This document shows, in pieces, positions 2,503 to 52,950 of a stretch of 64,000 nt of DNA (position 1 is the first letter of the stretch; each line of letters opens with the position of its first letter). The notes below the pieces were generated by a model. That model was not told where the DNA came from. It saw only the letters and a program-made list of their open reading frames with translations, and did no database searches. The translations under genes and the position numbers were made by a program. The stretch is from Aphelenchoides besseyi (taxonomy: Eukaryota > Nematoda > Chromadorea > Rhabditida > Aphelenchoididae), in assembly GCA_024699855.1 (NCBI GenBank), contig JAMPIQ010000003.1:1550001-1614000 (forward strand), in the 5' to 3' direction.

Positions 2503-3312
2503 TCGACTACACTAAATGTTGTTGAATCCGTTTCGTATGAACATTTTAAGAAACCCGTGACTATATTTCTGTGTTTTCGAACTCTAACGGTTTTAGATCG
2601 TCACCCAACGGTGTTTGAACAAAAATAAAAACGAGAAAAAGAGTCAATTTTCATCATCAGCGAAAACAAAATGCGCAGTGAGACGTTTGACCTCGAACTC
2701 AGAAACGGGACGCACACGCGCTTGGTAGGAAACACGGGGGACAGCAACGACGAAAGACGGCAAGTTGAGTGAGTTAGAGCAAAGAAGCAGCTCATTTTCG
2801 TCTCCGAGTCCCAAAAAGCCGTGACTCGATGTGTGCCCAACCGGCAGACTTTTGCCGCCGCTGAAACTCTGTGGTGCCCATCAGTTTGCTCTTTTACTCC
2901 GTTTCCTTCTCTCGAAGAACCCGCCAATTAATCAATCAATACGCGTTTCAGCCATCGGTTTTGATTTTTATCGTTATGCTTTTCGTTCCATGTGCTCGCG
3001 AGTCGTAAAATTGATTTAATGTCCATCACTTTAATGGGTTTGTTCAATCCGCTCAATAATTAACGGAATTTCAATTTCTTTACGTAACTAAACTTCTTAA
3101 TTGGCTTAATTGCAACTTGGAAAGCAAAATCACACCACTTCGTAAACTTCGGTTTTCGATTCGAACTTTTTTACAAATGCAAACTTATTGGCAATCAATC
3201 ATCGCATCGTTCGACCATTGTAGACGCTTCGTTGAATAAATTTTGGTCTTCTTAAGTTCCGATTCTAGGTGCTTGTCATCTTTGTTGCATTCTTGTGATT
3301 AAGATACCCATC
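2503..3312. other. Intergenic region upstream of the PBC homeobox gene
   Basis: About 800 bases with no convincing gene. Open frames on both strands lack splice signals and family resemblance. The stretch near 2680-2900 is richer in GC than its surroundings and may hold the promoter of the homeobox gene, but I see no definite TATA box or binding-site cluster. Confidence 0.4.
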
Positions 3313-4343
3313 ATGCAGTTGGACAATAAAACACAGTCCATAGATAATCTGCTTGGTCAATTAACTTTGATATCTGATGAAACATTCCCCGACGAAGAAA
3401 CGAGCGCTGCAATTAAGTGGGTTATCCGTTTGTTGCAAACTTACCGTACGATTTAGGGATCGCTTGCTGAGCCATCCGTTAAAGAACGCGCTGTTCGTCG
3501 TGTTATACGACTACAAGACACGAATAGGTAAGTTTTCGTTTCGTTCAGATATCTTATTTCATACGTTTCAGCACTTTCGACTCGCAATTCCATCGAAACA
3601 GAAGAGAATAATGCGCAACTCATGCGTCTGGACAACATGCTCATTGCCGAAGAGGTTGTCGCTCCCGATGGATCGATGCGACAAATGCCCGAAAACTATA
3701 TGGCCGATCAACCGGAATACAGAGAAAAGTTGCTGGAGATTCGCGAATCATACGCGAATTCAATGAACGTCTACTCCAGCGATTTGAACACGTTCAACCA
3801 TCACGTTGCTGTTTTGCTGCGACAACAACAGAACGTTCGTCCGATCACTCAGCAAGAGATTCAACGAATGTTAGAGATCATACAACGAAAATGGTCGCGA
3901 TTTCAAATCCAACTCAAACAAACAACTTGCGAGAATTTGGTGAACTTGAGACATCGTTTGTTAGATCAACGGTAATTTCAAATGTTGGAAAAATGGTCAA
4001 CATCAAAGTTTTTAGGCGAAAACGTCGAAATCACAGCAAAAAAGCAACCGAAGTGTTGAACCACTACTTCCAAACTCACATCAGCAATCCCTATCCAAGC
4101 GAAGAGGACAAGTTGGAGTTGGCTCGTCAATGTCAAATTACCGTCAATCAGGTGTCAAATTGGTTCGGAAATCGGCGAATTCGATACAAGAAAAGTCGAA
4201 TGAAACAACAACAACAATCTCATCCCTACGTCCCCGCTGCTCAAAATCCTCTCTCAACTCCAAATCCATACGCCGTACTTCCTGATCTCTACTCCTCTAT
4301 TGGTCTACATAATTCAAATTCTCCGTATGCGTACAACTTTTAA
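3313..4343 (+). CDS. PBC-class TALE homeodomain protein (Exd/PBX; ceh-20/ceh-40-like)
   Basis: Four exons (3313-3416, 3457-3527, 3572-3971, 4016-4343) give exactly 300 codons. The PBC region contains [22 protein letters not shown], the Y-R-E-K-L-L-E-I-R helix, [12 protein letters not shown] and the [11 protein letters not shown] segment. The TALE homeodomain begins [19 protein letters not shown], has the three-residue loop extension ISNPYPSEE, and recognition helix [20 protein letters not shown] proteins bind DNA with Hox and Meis-type partners and control nuclear entry and patterning. The glutamine run and the S/P/N/Y-rich C-terminus are lineage-specific. Its stop lies 30 nt from the stop of the convergent FAR gene. 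The call is secure; which of the nematode paralogues it is remains open. Confidence 0.95.
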
Positions 4344-4372
4344 TTGTTAGTAATGAATGAGTTTAATAACGA

Positions 4373-5010
4373 CTATACAACAGTCTTAATGGTTTTGGCG
4401 AAAGTCGAGAATGTCGCACCTAAAAATTGCTTTAGTTCCCATGATGTTAATCCAGACTCACTTTTGAGTGTCTTTACGATACTCGGAAATGCGGTTGTCA
4501 GTTCGGTTTTTGTGTCTTTGTCCAATCGATTCCACTGCAAAATAACGTGACTAGCGATCGTCTTCAAAGTCTCGATTTCTTTCACGTGTTCAGCACTTCG
4601 AATTGCTTGCATAACCTCGAATAATGTTGTAAGATTGACGAGTCAAAACCACTTACAAAGCTAATGAATCCACGAGAAGAAAGACTCAGATTTTTCATTT
4701 TGTTCGAAAACGCCTTGAATACCGATTTCGAATTTGCGGCCAACTCGGGATCTTGACCTCGTATTTCTGCGTCTATCGCTTCGCTTTTACCCGCATGTTT
4801 GGTTGCCGCTTCCCGCAAGATTCTGATTTGATCCGTGGACAAATTAGAGAAGAAGTTGTACAATTCTGGAGGCACAAGTCCTAAAAACCAAATAAGCTCA
4901 CCAAGAATCTTATGCCTACCAATGAAGTCATCTTTCACGTGCACATATTGGCCATCGACAAGATTGAAAATAAAAACCAAAGTGAACGTTAATTGCACGA
5001 AAATTTTCAT
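4373..5010 (-). CDS. Nematode fatty-acid and retinol-binding protein (FAR family)
   Basis: Two exons (4657-5010, 4373-4615) separated by a 41-nt intron encode 198 residues. A signal peptide (MKIFVQLTFTLVFIFNLVDG) is followed by the family pattern L-V-P-P-E-L-Y-N-F-F-S-N-L, then helices with LREAATKHAG and DPELAANSKSV, a GFISFVMQAIRS segment, and FPSIVKTLKSE near the end. FAR proteins are all-helical secreted lipid carriers binding fatty acids and retinol, made by hypodermis and intestine. Length and helix order match the family, although the sequence is diverged. It converges on the homeobox gene, with 29 nt between the stops. Confidence 0.8.
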
Positions 5011-5588
5011 CGCAGAACCAATCGAACGGAAGTAAGAAAACGGTTTTCTTCGATTTCGCGTTTAACCGTCTTTTCAACTCGCGGTGTAAACTCATTAAAC
5101 GATCGACAAACCGGCGCCGTCCGTTTCTTCCCTTTCAATTCGTCATCGTCGTTCGTTTGGCGCGTAGTTGTTAGTCTGCGATTTTTTGATGATTTTTCTT
5201 AGGAAAACATCCTCAACATTTTAACTTACGTTTTGTTGGATTTTTCGGATTTAAATTAAACTGTCGTCCAGAGTTCTTTTTCCTGCCGGCCAAATGCTCA
5301 GCATCTGATCCAGTTCTCGTTCAAGCCATGGACCGATGACATTTGCTTGTCCTCTTGATAATAAAACAAAATCTACATAGAATATTTCCTGCCACTTTTA
5401 CGCCAAAAAATTGAAAACCGCCGTAGGATAGTTTGAAATTGAATGGGAAAAAATTAGGAAGATCGGTTCAGTAGGTTTTGTAGGAAAAAAGACTATGCAA
5501 ACTAAATATCCAAAAATACGATATTTTAAGATTCGATCATGAGATTTTAAAAGACATTCAGAAACAGAAATCAAAAAATTTTACTTAA
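5011..5588. other. Intergenic, includes the FAR promoter side
   Basis: AT-rich sequence with no supported gene. It contains the 5' flank of the minus-strand FAR gene. I see no repeats or RNA genes. Confidence 0.4.
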
Positions 5589-10694: not shown

Positions 10695-10862
10695 TGTTGT
10701 GTATTGAACGCACTCGCCGTGCGCCCCGCCCCTTCGTTATTGTCGACCACCGACTGTCAGCCGGTGGTCAGTTGTTGTTTTTGGTGGATTGGGGTGCTTT
10801 GGTGACTCTGAGTTTTTCACCAAATAAAAGAACCCTCGTCAAGGATACGTGCGGACACAACA
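10695..10862 (+). repeat. 5' LTR
   Basis: 168 bp starting TGTTGTGTATTG and ending GGACACAACA. The ends are 8-bp inverted repeats. It contains AATAAA near 10832, which could serve as the element's poly(A) signal. It matches 16081-16247 except for four substitutions and one extra C. Confidence 0.92.
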
Positions 10863-11226
10863 ATTGGCAAAGCTGACTAACTCCGAATCTACACGCAGAC
10901 GCGGGATATTCCATTCCGCCGGACCAAGTCGAGCGTCCGCAAGACCGTGGGCCTCATCATTTCTGTTTCGCGGGTTCAAGTCGTGTTTCATTAATTCAGG
11001 TTATTGACAACCAGAAGGCGAACGTTCCGAAAGTTTCCACTTTCCGACACGTTTAGGCCAGATTTCGGGCGCGCCGCACTTCGTTTTTGGAGGGCCGACC
11101 GACACACACGCCGCATTCCACTTGCCGATCAGACGCGAGACAACGGACCGTTTTTTTGTTTTTTTAAAACGCTCAACGAACCGGACTTCACGCTGGTAAT
11201 TTTCGGGGCTAGACTCTCTTTTAGAT

Positions 11227-16080: not shown

Positions 16081-16247
16081 TGTTGTGTATTGAACGCACT
16101 CGCCGTGCGCCCGCCCCTTTGTTATTGTCGACCACCAACTGTCAGCCGGTGGTCAGTTGTTGTTTTTGGTGGATTGTGGTGCTTTGGTGACTCTGAGTTT
16201 TTCACCGAATAAAAGAACCCTCGTCAAGGATACGTGCGGACACAACA
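16081..16247 (+). repeat. 3' LTR
   Basis: 167 bp, same ends as the 5' LTR. It is preceded by a purine-rich tract (GAGAAAGGGAGGAA) fitting the plus-strand primer site and followed directly by AGATC. Confidence 0.92.
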
Positions 16248-16252
16248 AGATC
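16248..16252. repeat. Target-site duplication AGATC, right copy
   Basis: Matches 10690-10694. Taking the element and one AGATC copy away leaves an uninterrupted reading frame across the join. Confidence 0.85.
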
Positions 16253-18915: not shown

Positions 18916-20090
18916 ATGTCCGCTTCTTTAATCGTTGAGAAAGAGCGTACCGTAAGTAAAAATAAACAGCAATTAACTGGGATTTTCAGTTCTATGCTCT
19001 CTATCAAAAAGATTCAAGTGTTATTCAAGGACCAATCTGTTTGGCTTACGTTTTTCTTTTTGTTGCGTCTTTTGGATTGGTTGGCAACTTTGGAATCGTT
19101 GTTCTGACTTATCGGAGTCCGTAGGTGGCATCTCCAGTTATACTCAATTGCCTGTTTAGACGATTGAAGAACTCCTGTAACTACCTTCTTGCTTTTCTTT
19201 GTCTCAGCGATTGTTTGCATGAAATTGGTCACTTTTCCTACATTTATCGGATGCTCACTGGCAACTACTTCATCAGCTTCAAATCCTGTTTCTTGCTTCA
19301 GTTTTTTCCGTTGATTGGAGCTCTTTTTGGCGCTGTTCTTCCATTGGTGATTAGTCTCGATCGGCTTTTTAGTTGTTTCTTCCCCAAATTGTGAGTCTTA
19401 TTCGAAGTATTCTAACTGATTACCATTTAGTCATCTTGCTTTTAAACCCACAATTTATGGTATTTTGGTTTTTTCTATTGGTGGTCTCTACATCTTTGTA
19501 ACTTTCTATGCGGCTACTAAACAGATTTCAAAACACGGGAACCAGTGAGTTTACATCCACATGTTGAGTATAAGAAGTTCTTATTAGGCTCATGCTTTGT
19601 GCTGTTCCTGATCCATTGATTTCACAACGAACTACGAATTTTATTTATCATGTATCCGCTGGTCTTATGAACGGGATAGCAGCTTGTATTTACGCAACTG
19701 TTTGGATTCGATTGCGTCCAAAAAAACGTTTGTAACTGTATGTCGTCCTTACTGATTGGTTAATTGCAGATAATAGAGATGGATCGAAACGACCATTTAA
19801 AGCTCTGTGTGCCATCATCTTCTCTTTGTTATGCAGTTGGGTGGCTGGAGCAATCGTTCAGTTGTTTTTAATATGCATTGATGCGGAACCTCAACAGTTC
19901 TTTTACAGTCTCGCAATCACTGGTTTTTGTATTAACGTTGTTTGTGCGAGCAATTGCGTTTGCTTGTTCACCTTCAGGTATCATCAGTTTAAGATTTTGA
20001 GTAGTGTCGAATTTTAGTAGTGACTATCGACATGCTCTACGTTGTGAATTCGCAACTCGTAGAAGTAGAGTCAACTCAATTAATCCTTAA
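18916..20090 (+). CDS. Srsx-like seven-helix chemoreceptor, copy 1
   Basis: Seven exons (18916-18951, 18990-19120, 19160-19390, 19431-19544, 19588-19727, 19770-19977, 20018-20090) join to 310 residues. Srsx-type signs are GLVGNFGIVVLTYRS in helix 1, L-C-L-S-D-C-L-H-E in helix 2, I-S-L-D-R in the DRY position after helix 3, and C-A-S-N with D-Y-R-H-A after helix 7. The 39-nt intron 2 (19121-19159) hides what would otherwise be an in-frame TAG. Exon order and phases are the same as in the copy 1.5 kb downstream, so the two arose by tandem duplication. Likely a G-protein-coupled chemosensory or peptide receptor. Confidence 0.88.
19092..19310 (+). repeat. 219-bp tract identical to 20562-20780
   Basis: From the base after a single mismatch at 19091/20561 to the end of CAGTTTTTTCCG, the two receptor genes are identical, including the 39-nt intron. 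Outside this tract they diverge strongly. This is the mark of gene conversion between tandem copies. Confidence 0.9.
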
Positions 20091-20407: not shown

Positions 20408-21570
20408 ATGGACGATTTAGTAAGTTTCCTATGCTTTTAAATTCTAAGGATGTTTGTAGTTTGACAATTTTTATCTCAACGATCCCAGCGTAATCAAAGT
20501 GGCAGTTGTTTGGGCGTTTATTTTGATTGTTATTGATGCTTACGGATTGGTTGGCAACTTCGGAATCGTTGTTCTGACTTATCGGAGTCCGTAGGTGGCA
20601 TCTCCAGTTATACTCAATTGCCTGTTTAGACGATTGAAGAACTCCTGTAACTACCTTCTTGCTTTTCTTTGTCTCAGCGATTGTTTGCATGAAATTGGTC
20701 ACTTTTCCTACATTTATCGGATGCTCACTGGCAACTACTTCATCAGCTTCAAATCCTGTTTCTTGCTTCAGTTTTTTCCGATGATTGGAATGCTTCTTGG
20801 AATCATTTTGCCAATGATAATAAGCTTCGATCGTTTCTTTAGTTTCTTTTGGCCAGTTTTGTAAGTTGAATATCGAATGATTTTCGATGCAAAGTTTAGA
20901 CATCAAAACATAAGTTCGATAGTATACACGACTTTTGTCTTAGCAGTTTGTGGTCTTTATGTTGGATTGATTTTATACGTGAATTTTGACGGCGTGCTTC
21001 TAAATAGAGAGTAAGTTGCAGCAATCAAACAAACAAAACAATAGATTTTAAGAACCGTTCTTTGCTTCGTTCCACAACCGATAGTCACTCAGAAACGTGG
21101 TTTAATGATATTTGAACTAACAACTGGTTTCATCAACTTGATTGCCATCTTACTTTACGTTGTGGTCTGGATTGGATTGCATACAAGACAACGTTTGTTT
21201 CTCTACTCATAATCCTTTCAACTGACAATTTTAAGATATAACTGACGATACTAAACGAACATTCAAAGCGCTTTCTGTAATCATTCTTTCTTTGGTATTC
21301 GGTTGGCTTTCTGCAGCAATAAGCTCACTGATTGTGTTGTTGATTGCTCAAGCGTATACTCTTCAGCTATTCTACGCCGGTGTTGTTTCCGGAACGTGTG
21401 TTAACATCGTGTGTGCAAGCAATGCGGTTTTACTGTTCGTCTTCAGGTTTGTTTTTCGTTTTCTGATTTTCGGTTTAATCGAATTTTTCAGTCGTGACTA
21501 TCGGAACGCTTTTATAGAAGAATTTAAACGGCACAAGAATAGAATCACGTCTGTTAGCCAGGACAAATGA
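20408..21570 (+). CDS. Srsx-like seven-helix chemoreceptor, copy 2
   Basis: Seven exons (20408-20419, 20460-20590, 20630-20860, 20900-21010, 21053-21192, 21236-21446, 21492-21570) join to 304 residues. The first exon holds only four codons (MDDL). Helix 2 reads L-C-L-S-D-C-L-H-E, the post-helix-3 motif is I-S-F-D-R, and helix 7 ends C-A-S-N-A-V-L-L-F-V-F followed by R-D-Y-R-N. Exons 5-7 differ clearly from copy 1, while exons 2-3 and the intron between them are identical over 219 bp. Two introns use AAG acceptors. Same inferred role as copy 1. Confidence 0.88.
20562..20780 (+). repeat. 219-bp tract identical to 19092-19310
   Basis: Second copy of the identical tract, offset by exactly 1,470 bases. 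It carries the end of exon 2, intron 2 and most of exon 3 of receptor copy 2. Confidence 0.9.
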
Positions 21571-38727: not shown

Positions 38728-38909
38728 ATCGCTTCTCGGCCTCTGGCTAAGATCATTTGTCAGTAACTGTTCCTATCAGCTTAATCTCTGGTACGAGTAC
38801 TAATGTGCTCATCGAGATTATTCTCTTTTTGGCACCAGTTGGACTGAAGGGCTTGCTCTTCTTTCGACAAGGGTCGACTCGGACTTGCACTTACTCCGAG
38901 AACGGCCTA
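38728..38909 (+). ncRNA. U2-like spliceosomal snRNA with an altered branch-recognition region
   Basis: It begins ATCGCTTCTCGGCC and GGCTAAGATCA, the highly conserved U2 5' end, and continues CTGTTCCTATCAG, then an Sm-like TTTTTGG and GC-rich 3' stem-loops with GGACTTGCAC and GAGAACGG. The total is about 182 nt, the usual U2 length. In normal U2 the bases pairing to the intron branch site read GTGTAGTATCTG; here the segment reads TTGTCAGTAACTG. Stem I also lacks one T (CCTCTGG instead of CCTTTTGG). This could be a variant U2, or a pseudogene with good overall preservation. No other U2 copy is in the window for comparison. Confidence 0.8.
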
Positions 38910-39167
38910 CAATATAAACTACTCAAGCAACAACAATTTCATGAGTCATACAAACGTTAATTATTCGTTGTTTTCTTGAGAAAAATCTGAAGACGCATTT
39001 TCACAAACTACGTGACTCGAGCGTTTCCGTTATGTTTATTTGCGGTTACAAAAATATCAGTCAAACATGTTATCACATAAAAAGCGACTTGGAAAAATTA
39101 TAACTACATCATAGAGTTGAATGGCCGGGTGTATGCGAGAAGTTTTGACGATCGTTTTTGAACTTTG
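38910..39167. other. Spacer between U2-like RNA and the RBR ligase 3' end
   Basis: AT-rich sequence without a recognised gene; it contains the 3' UTR side of the minus-strand ligase. Confidence 0.3.
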
Positions 39168-50851: not shown

Positions 50852-51384
50852 TCACCGTCGTCTCCAAGAAACTTTTGTTCATCCACGTCCGGTCTGTTCG
50901 TTGGATGGGCATCAGAAGTCGTTTGCTGACTCGGCAGCTTTTTGGAGTCGTCAAACTGAGAAACTGCACGTTAAGTTTGCTGATTTATTGCATGTCTCGA
51001 TCAGTGAGCTTTAAGTGACGAGATTTGTGATAAGTTTTTCTCAGATGCTTCTGATTCCGCTTATTAGCTTTTTGTTTGAATCCAAAAAATAAACTTTGAG
51101 ATTGGAGATTGTTTCTTGAAAAGCGTTCGCGAGTTGACGAAGAGAATGCAGTCGTCGTATTTTCAACGATCGATACCATAGCAATTATTGGCCTTGCTGT
51201 TGTCACCAATCGTACTGACCCAATTTATTGAAATTGATTTGGAGAACAACTGGTGAACTGACAAGTGTGCTCGAACCTGTTTTTGTGAAGAACCAAGCAA
51301 AATTGGATGCTTAGTTTGCATTTGTCTTCAATTCAATCACCAGTGCATGAAACACAGCAGTCAAAAGAACAAGCTGAGAGCCAT
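50852..51384. other. Intergenic, nothing recognised
   Basis: No supportable gene or repeat. Ends where the 3' end of the minus-strand LINE begins. Confidence 0.3.
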
Positions 51385-51651
51385 TGAACAAAGATTTATT
51401 CGGTTCAATCAACAAAAAGATAAAATTAAAGGTGATAAAAGATAGTTAATTTGTTGATGCGAATACTTCGACCGCTTTTTCCAACCGCTTCGGTTTTGAG
51501 CGATTTGTTGCCATCCGTTTCCCAACAGATTCAAGTCTCGGCGCCAACGGTGAGGTGGTCTTCCAATTGGTCTGGTCCAACCATAAGGCCACCAGAAAGT
51601 TGTTCTTGTTGACCATCGATTGTCGTTTCTTCTTTCGATATGTCCGGCCCC

Positions 51652-51662
51652 TCGAAACTTAC
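51652..51662. repeat. 11-bp target duplication TCGAAACTTAC, left copy
   Basis: Matches 52437-52447 exactly. It belongs to the minus-strand LINE sequence (K-F-R codons) and marks the insertion point of the nested element. Confidence 0.85.
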
Positions 51663-52436
51663 CGCACACGCGGGGGAAGCGAGCTGGCGAGCGGTCGTGT
51701 TTTTCGGCCGCTCCGCTTTTTGTTCGTTTTTGTTCGATTTCTCGTTTTCACCCGTTGCGTGGCCCGGGACAAGCACTTGCAAGCCCCCGGTTAGGCAGAA
51801 ATGCCGAATGCTACATGGCCTCAACGATCCAAGCGTCATGAACTCAAGATCGGAACCTTCAACTGTCGAGCAATTGCAACCGAAGAACGTCTCAGCGCAT
51901 TGGAAGAAGAACTCCGGTCGATCAACGTCGACATCCTGGGCATCTCGTCAACGCGTCGACATGGAACGTCAATCACACACCGCCTGGACTCCAATCTTCA
52001 TTTCTACCACTCAGGCAACGACAATCAACGAGCAACGTTTGAAGGAGTCGGCTTTTTGGTCAGCGAACAAGCCAACCGTTTGGTTAAGAACGCGATTTTT
52101 CACACCAACCGAATTGCTCAACTTTTTCGGCTCTTTCCAAACGGCGAAACTGCAAGATTGACGCAAATCTACGCACCAGCAACATCTAACAAGAAGAAAC
52201 CTTCCAATTCGAACAATCAAAGCAAAGACGCCGAAAGGGAAAATGAAGAAGATGAACCAATGGACAGAAGCGGCAAAGGACGAACAACGTTGGAAGAAGC
52301 TCGGAGAAACATTTGCGATTCCGCTGCCACAAAAATCGAAAAGACGACAACAATCGTGAGGTCACCAACACGGAACTTTACTTGATCACTTAATGGTCAC
52401 TGTTTATCCGTTGATTTTGGAAATAAACTTTGAACT
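51663..52436 (+). mobile_element. Nested internally deleted LINE: endonuclease plus C-terminal tail, no RT
   Basis: 774 bp between two copies of TCGAAACTTAC. It starts with GC-rich sequence, has an ORF from the ATG at 51801, and ends GAAATAAACTTTGAACT, similar to the end of the LINE it sits in. The ORF begins MPNATWPQRSKRHELKIGTF and is an apurinic-type endonuclease domain: I-G-T-F-N-C-R, V-D-I-L-G-I-S, H-F-Y-H-S-G-N, G-V-G-F-L-V and A-R-L-T-Q-I-Y-A-P. About 20 codons later another frame gives W-T-E-A-A-K-D-E-Q-R-W-K-K-L-G-E-T-F, the far C-terminal tail of such LINE proteins. The whole RT is absent. Confidence 0.8.
51801..52385 (+). pseudogene. Endonuclease-domain ORF of the deleted LINE
   Basis: 194 codons from ATG. 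Residues about 15-130 form the endonuclease/exonuclease/phosphatase fold of RTE/CR1-type LINEs, ending in Q-I-Y-A-P-A-T. The catalytic His/Asp part further on is lost. The last 60 residues are in the wrong frame relative to the LINE tail sequence they overlap. It could still make a truncated endonuclease-like protein. Confidence 0.65.
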
Positions 52437-52447
52437 TCGAAACTTAC
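52437..52447. repeat. 11-bp target duplication TCGAAACTTAC, right copy
   Basis: Exact match to 51652-51662, directly after the 3' end of the nested element. Confidence 0.85.
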
Positions 52448-52950
52448 GTTTTAATGCGTCGTGAACGGCGTCTTTAAACTTTGTTTGTGCTCTGATTTCA
52501 ACACTTCTGACTTCATCGCGTAGTCGAATCCCAAGAATTCTTCTTTCCATTGCTCTTTGCGTCGTTGTTAGTTTGGTACGTTCGGTTTTCCGCATCGTCC
52601 AAACTTCATATCCATAATTGAGCACTGGTAGTACAACTGAGTTGAAGAGTTGAGCTCAAATTTTGACGTCTTTTGTCTTAGAGCCATTGAAATGACTAGA
52701 AATTTGAATGACCATTCTCAACACCACTGCGCTTTTACACTCACTTCCATAACAACACAAAGGAAGTGAACTTCTTATCGAGTTGATCACATTTGCTGAC
52801 TTCGAAAGGCCTACCAATGTTTATGTGAAATTTGCATAAATGCAAATAACCACTTTGACTACTTTTTTTCCAATTTTATTTGCGGTCAAACATCCGAGGA
52901 GGTAAGTCGCCTCTCAATCACCCCCTGATTCCTCTTCGTAATTTTGGAAT

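Follow-up and report, generated by a model that had tools for sequence, protein, structure and literature searches.

What lies between two identical 11-mers in the middle of a LINE of the nematode Aphelenchoides besseyi: one LINE copy that has lost its interior, or a member of a family that moves in this shortened form? The window, i.e. the whole 64-kb stretch of DNA analysed, holds the 11-mer TCGAAACTTAC at 51652-51662 and at 52437-52447, with no further occurrence on either strand. Because the adjoining bases disagree (C/T before, C/G after), the duplication measures exactly 11 bp, and the 774 bases between its copies (51663-52436, plus strand) form an insert within a minus-strand LINE. An exact duplication of this kind, and a host LINE that reads through once the insert is removed, had both been proposed from the sequence alone, and both hold: with the two sides translated apart, the minus-strand frame of the host (...HDALK / KFRGAGHIERR...) picks up again past the insert. 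Used as queries, the two host flanks have at least 39 and at least 40 scored matches in the genome; the site was read in the 24 loci fetched, of which two are the window copy and the other 22 fall at 13 different places. The site is unoccupied in all 13, with the exact 11-mer GTAAGTTTCGA in 12 and one mismatch in the remaining one. The host LINE is itself bounded by a 12-bp repeat, AGAGCCATTGAA, and the insert is therefore a LINE derivative within an earlier LINE insertion. The features of the locus, with the basis of each in brackets, are as follows.

51377..51388, no strand: target duplication of the host LINE, copy 1, AGAGCCATTGAA (flanking-repeat comparison)
51389..52679, minus strand: host LINE, of a different family from the insert, apparently 5′-truncated and split by the insert (other copies align to 52448-52679 and to about 51388-51650; 12-bp repeat on both sides)
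51652..51662, no strand: target duplication of the insert, copy 1, TCGAAACTTAC (single in the 13 empty sites read)
51663..52436, plus strand: short internally deleted LINE (SIDE), 774 bp (genome copies, exact join)
51665..51800, plus strand: 5′ head from the 5′ end of the parent LINE, with the usual start CACACGCGGGGG, preceded by two extra bases in the window copy (comparison with parents)
51801..52385, plus strand: open frame of 194 aa that begins as the parent endonuclease (N-terminal half, 51801-52256) and continues in a frame differing from that of the parent C-terminal tail (translation, parent alignment)
52256..52257, plus strand: internal join, parent 5′ segment to 52256 and parent 3′ segment from 52257, with ~2.4 kb of parent absent (parent alignment)
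52257..52427, plus strand: 3′ segment from the 3′ end of the parent LINE, with AATAAA at 52422 (parent alignment)
52261..52359, plus strand: remnant of the sequence coding for the parent's C-terminal tail (WTEAAKDEQRWKKLGETF...), in a frame other than that of the endonuclease (frame comparison)
52428..52436, plus strand: 3′ terminal repeat, CTTTGAACT in the window copy (3′ ends compared across copies)
52437..52447, no strand: target duplication of the insert, copy 2 (exact 11-mer)
52680..52691, no strand: target duplication of the host LINE, copy 2 (flanking-repeat comparison)

Elsewhere, the window contains a U2 spliceosomal RNA gene (38728-38915, plus strand; RF00004, 123.5 bits) and two pairs of direct repeats, one of 246 bp at 99% (19074-19319 / 20544-20789) and one of 169 bp at 97% (10695-10863 / 16081-16248).

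Alignment with full-length LINEs of the same genome, the route suggested for placing the deletion, locates it precisely: parental 5′ sequence is kept through endonuclease codon 152, followed directly by the ~170 bases that precede the terminal repeat. The corresponding 5′ (query 3-594) and 3′ (query 595-765) segments lie ~2.4 kb apart in three full-length relatives (L031-L033) and further apart in a fourth (L034), which holds an insert. No microhomology was found at the ends of the absent ~2.4 kb. Splicing was considered as the source of the deletion and rejected, since the absent stretch ends GA...TC and does not show GT...AG.

The sequence-only reading had described the insert as an endonuclease joined almost directly to a W-T-E-A-A-K-D tail. 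At the DNA level this description stands; as a protein it does not, the tail lying in a different frame from the endonuclease, of which the N-terminal half alone is kept, stopping short of GDFN and SDH in the alignment. As judged from its frames, the derivative encodes no endonuclease-tail protein, and it has no reverse transcriptase (RT) of its own. The 194-aa frame gave no Pfam or NCBIfam match at E ≤ 0.001, nor did a protein search with it yield any among 118 candidates at the same threshold. Rfam returned no family up to E = 5 for 51640-52460, tRNA, 5S and 7SL heads included; because the head is the parent's own 5′ end and no Rfam family matched, the derivative is not SINE-headed. An HDV-like ribozyme at the 5′ end was rejected on the same search, and L031, L033, L028 and L075 contained no ribozyme family in Rfam up to E = 2, their sole match being RyhB-like and far below the gathering score. 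The predicted RNA fold of 51665-51815 is mildly more stable than shuffled sequence (z = −1.97; 7 of 200 shuffles equally good).

Across the genome (47,386,574 bases in 31 contigs), 34 matches to the insert were found. Six of these (L001-L006), referred to as the complete copies, begin at base 1-5 of the insert, run to base 772-774 and are 99.6-100% identical to it. Another, L007, is 97% identical, starts at base 31 and spans the join; a truncated copy (L013/L035) starts at base 569 and spans it as well; and L008 runs over bases 3-575 with the substitutions of the recent derivatives before entering a 100-N gap ahead of the join. A further locus, L043 (645-765, 99% identical to the derivative, with a duplication of 13 bp), may be another truncated derivative and does not enter the count. 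A 20-mer spanning the internal join has eight exact matches in the genome (L001-L007 and L035); allowing up to three mismatches adds 15 matches, every one with three, and the reversed control gave two.

The six complete copies sit at different sites with different flanks, and each has an exact target duplication of its own (11, 10, 12, 12, 11 and 11 bp for L001-L006). Swapping flanks among these copies gave repeats of at most 8 bp (mean 4.6, n = 30), and the 10-12 bp duplications are therefore not chance. L007 has no duplication of 7 bp or more, and L035 has an exact one of 7 bp. Target-site preferences across 11 duplicated sites are weak, with T as the first base in 8 of 11. Five of the six complete copies start at CACACGC and L004 two bases later; in L003, the two bases ahead of CACACGC can belong to the target duplication. 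Since all start at or within two bases of this motif, they are not 5′-truncated. The expectation that further copies would share the join and differ in their duplications is thus borne out, and the assembly reads as one join carried to separate sites by separate insertions with complete 5′ ends.

The closest full-length relatives, L031-L034, have the same starting bases and the same 3′ segment as the derivative and measure ~3.17 kb (L031, 3173 bp). In L031, the endonuclease shows the motifs TFN, GDFN and SDH, and the RT shows AYADD. In Pfam, the open part of L033 matches RVT_1 (1.5e-36) and Exo_endo_phos (8.2e-9); the NCBIfam matches of the parent are bacterial RT models, far below their cut-offs. 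LINEs of the RTE clade have a single frame with an APE endonuclease and an RT, about 3.2 kb in length, and end in short 3′ repeats rather than poly(A). In anatomy the parent fits, and it may belong to this clade. Its frame is interrupted in all four copies: L031 has a stop and a frame change, L032 has frame changes, L033 an early stop, and L034 an insert of 1.8 kb besides a stop and a frame change. No working helper of the parental family is thus seen in the assembly. Further copies of the family extend only part way toward the 5′ end. L032, L033 and L034 have target duplications of their own (11-13 bp) and L031 has none; moreover, L031 (1-1002) and L034 (17-1051), on different contigs, have ~1 kb of 5′ flank in common at 96% and differ in their 3′ flanks. 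Judging by these flanks, one of the two is probably a DNA duplicate, the duplication ending at or in the LINE.

Two further observations were made in these LINEs. The 1.8-kb insert in L034 (about 3247-5089) has long inverted ends starting CAGGGTGTCTC and adjoining TA, which we take to indicate something like a Tc1/mariner-type DNA transposon. Upstream of the start codon, L028 and L030 (about 1502-1545) read CCGAG ACAAG...CTCGG, resembling the parent's CCGGG ACAAG...CCCGG, followed by a GGCA...TGCC pair around the ATG; this likeness suggests that a hairpin at the translation start has been kept.

How are the derivatives related to these parents and to each other? In a tree of the 5′ part (without L035, which contributes only 27 bases), the eight derivatives form one clade against the four parents (support 100/99), with the seven recent ones nested within it (100/98), the bootstrap not having settled; a tree of the 3′ part (without the partial L043 and L044) agrees weakly (77/86). 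Any two of the six complete copies are 0-4 bases apart (mean 2.07 of 764). L007 is separated from the recent derivatives at 23-26 of 737 positions, and from the parents at 28-34 of about 735, so that it stands nearly as far from its own kin as from the parental LINEs. The sequences show the derivative diverging as a lineage of its own, and a recent burst of copies. That a compact non-autonomous LINE form moved as such, the central proposal of the sequence-only reading, is upheld by the single join, the separate duplications and a derivative clade apart from the full-length copies.

The terminal repeat changed along this lineage. In the 3′ counts, which omit L008 on account of its gap, six recent copies have a CTTTGAA-type repeat, and the parents, L007 and L035 have (A)TTGAA; the CTTTGAA type is found in none of the 12 parental-type 3′ ends read (L031-L034, L036-L042 and L044). 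An 18-mer of the derivative CTTTGAA tail has four exact matches in the genome, all of them derivatives; allowing up to two mismatches gives 29 sites, compared with 15 when the 18-mer is reversed. The number of repeats varies among derivative copies, and tails made by reverse transcription do vary in repeat number. The simplest history compatible with these sequences would be one deletion, a derivative evolving independently, a change of tail and a recent burst.

Taken together, the insert is very probably a member of a multi-copy SIDE that derived once from the ~3.17-kb LINE by loss of ~2.4 kb and would have been copied in trans by a LINE endonuclease-RT. That one event would account for the missing latter half of the endonuclease and for the absence of the RT and of most of the C-terminal region. 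Retained are the exact 5′ end of the parent, which probably holds a promoter or a 5′ RNA signal, and the last ~170 bases with the short terminal repeat, which probably serve as the recognition site of the RT. RNA would be made from the parental 5′ end and its 3′ end taken by a LINE RT in trans, with copying beginning at the nicked target (target-primed reverse transcription) and yielding the 10-12 bp duplications. The target duplications and the variable 3′ repeats are structural evidence that points to this mode of copying; in L002-L005, by our reading of the ends, the target duplication begins with bases that also belong to the terminal repeat. Transcription, the supply of RT in trans and the identity of the helper are inferred. 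The derivative would most likely be an RNA parasite using RT in trans, and its helper most likely a parental-family copy, a choice favoured by 3′ segments that agree at 94-96%. Against this reading stand the interrupted frames of all four full-length parents, the 3′ repeat of the recent copies that the parental ends lack, the missing duplication of L007 and the short one of L035, the gap in L008 and the near-equal distances of L007 from recent derivatives and parents.

Each of these steps has its rivals. The insert does resemble a LINE with its middle removed, and the sequence-only reading had conceded that, were there no second copy of the join, a secondary deletion confined to this one LINE copy would explain it. 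With the base-identical join in eight places, and with different flanks and duplications in six complete copies, that explanation has next to no probability left. Nor do we give much more credit to the idea that the copies spread at the DNA level, by segmental duplication or gene conversion, and not by retrotransposition. Duplication of this kind occurs in the family, as the common flank of L031 and L034 attests, yet the complete derivatives have different flanks, their own duplications and differing numbers of 3′ repeats, which makes it extremely unlikely as the means of their spread. A protein-coding derivative, whose truncated endonuclease would compete with or regulate full-length LINEs, is also very improbable. 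All six complete copies keep the 194-aa frame open, but copies this young would do so anyway, and the older L007 has a stop after 75 codons; the part bearing GDFN and SDH is gone as well. Of the base changes in the frame, replacements account for 3 of 6 on the branch in common with L007, for 4 of 6 on that of the recent copies and for 7 of 11 on L007 itself, against a neutral expectation of 0.73 (three-state sites being scored on both branches and the L007 stop as a replacement). These look neutral, in counts too small to exclude weak constraint.

The choice of helper leaves more room for disagreement. It might have been another LINE, for instance the related open-frame family at 52% amino-acid identity, with the altered 3′ repeat reflecting a change of helper. 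Three full-length copies of that family are open, as are long copies of some other families, whereas the four full-length parental copies are interrupted, and the six recent derivatives differ from the older ones in their 3′ repeat. On the other hand, three 3′ ends of the 52% family bear CAAA repeats, not CTTTGAA, and the derivative retains its 94-96% identity to the parental 3′ segment. We regard a helper from outside the parental family as unlikely and retain the parental LINE as the preferred source of RT.

A side result concerns the endonuclease itself. At one of its motifs, where relatives have G[LI][SAC]E, the derivative (window 51801-52256) and its four parents have G[LI]SSTR, as do a sister family with 67% DNA identity (L027-L030) and two others (L077/L081 and L079/L080). 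The Glu of this motif is catalytic in such endonucleases. It is present in the families at 52% and 45% identity (L076, L078) and in P0001-P0013; among the 29 proteins checked, 15 of the remaining 16 fell outside the pattern searched, and P0016 fitted it with another residue. The LINE families with Ser in place of the Glu of G[LI]SETR (L027-L034, L077, L079-L081) retain GDFN (or GDWN) and SDH, and parental-family copies show target duplications despite the exchange. On these motifs, Ser-bearing LINE families may have an unusual active site or receive endonuclease in trans. A broader conjecture joins this point to the descent of the derivative: the parasite would have evolved independently of its parent, the change from (A)TTGAA to CTTTGAA would have come with the recent burst and may have caused it, by a better fit to the RT or a change of helper, and the Ser-for-Glu parents may themselves have an active site of an unusual type or depend on endonuclease supplied in trans. 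As a whole, we hold this combination to be improbable.

A young, low-copy family with one join, in which older and burst lineages, full-length relatives in one genome and a changed 3′ repeat come together, shows which parts of a LINE suffice for mobilisation without an RT of its own and amounts to a natural experiment on template choice by RT.

Elements of this kind are called SIDEs, short internally deleted elements of non-LTR retrotransposons, in two papers (PMC3414825, PMC6740152). The derivative bears the corresponding features: LINE ends joined without the middle, several copies with one join, the apparent structural marks of target-primed reverse transcription and no SINE head. SIDEs of non-LTR elements are described as rare, from fruit flies, Anopheles gambiae and Trypanosoma brucei and then from Lepidoptera (PMC6740152). 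For nematodes, none was found by title or abstract start among the literature matches listed, which lie mostly outside the subscription journals where short LINE relatives of C. elegans may be described; in the accessible part of one nematode paper (PMC11118728), the word 'autonomous' is absent.

The SIDEs of R2 in Drosophila are likewise 5′ and 3′ LINE ends joined by internal deletion, form their own lineage, are not SINEs and moved by target-primed reverse transcription with machinery from elsewhere, as the derivative would have done. They lie in 28S genes and have a 5′ self-cleaving ribozyme, whereas the derivative is dispersed, with 10-12 bp duplications, and matched no ribozyme family. 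The RIME/NARTc elements of trypanosomes, of the same kind and derived from ingi/L1Tc, are short (260-1030 bp), non-autonomous, internally deleted and paired with an autonomous LINE, again like the derivative (PMC3820030). They are described there as non-coding with a 5′ signature of 76-79 bp, whereas the derivative has ~590 bp of parental 5′ sequence and a half-endonuclease frame. In L1Tc, the signature goes with an HDV-like ribozyme. With no ribozyme family matched in the derivative or in L031, L033, L028 and L075, and with a nematode and not a trypanosomatid as its host, it most likely lies outside this group of the ingi clade.

Ag-Sponge of Anopheles gambiae is listed among internally deleted LINE derivatives (PMC6740152, PMC3414825) and is likened here by description. 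Persaeus, a SIDE of the CR1 LINE Zenon in Lepidoptera, has parental 5′ and 3′ ends with an internal deletion and was also recognised from an insertion inside another element (PMC6740152). It makes up on average 1.48% of its host genomes, with several origins and a central region of unclear origin, whereas the derivative has 8 to 10 copies and one join, at which two parental segments abut directly. Set beside these systems, the family is a clear-cut new case of the SIDE, a kind already known but rare.
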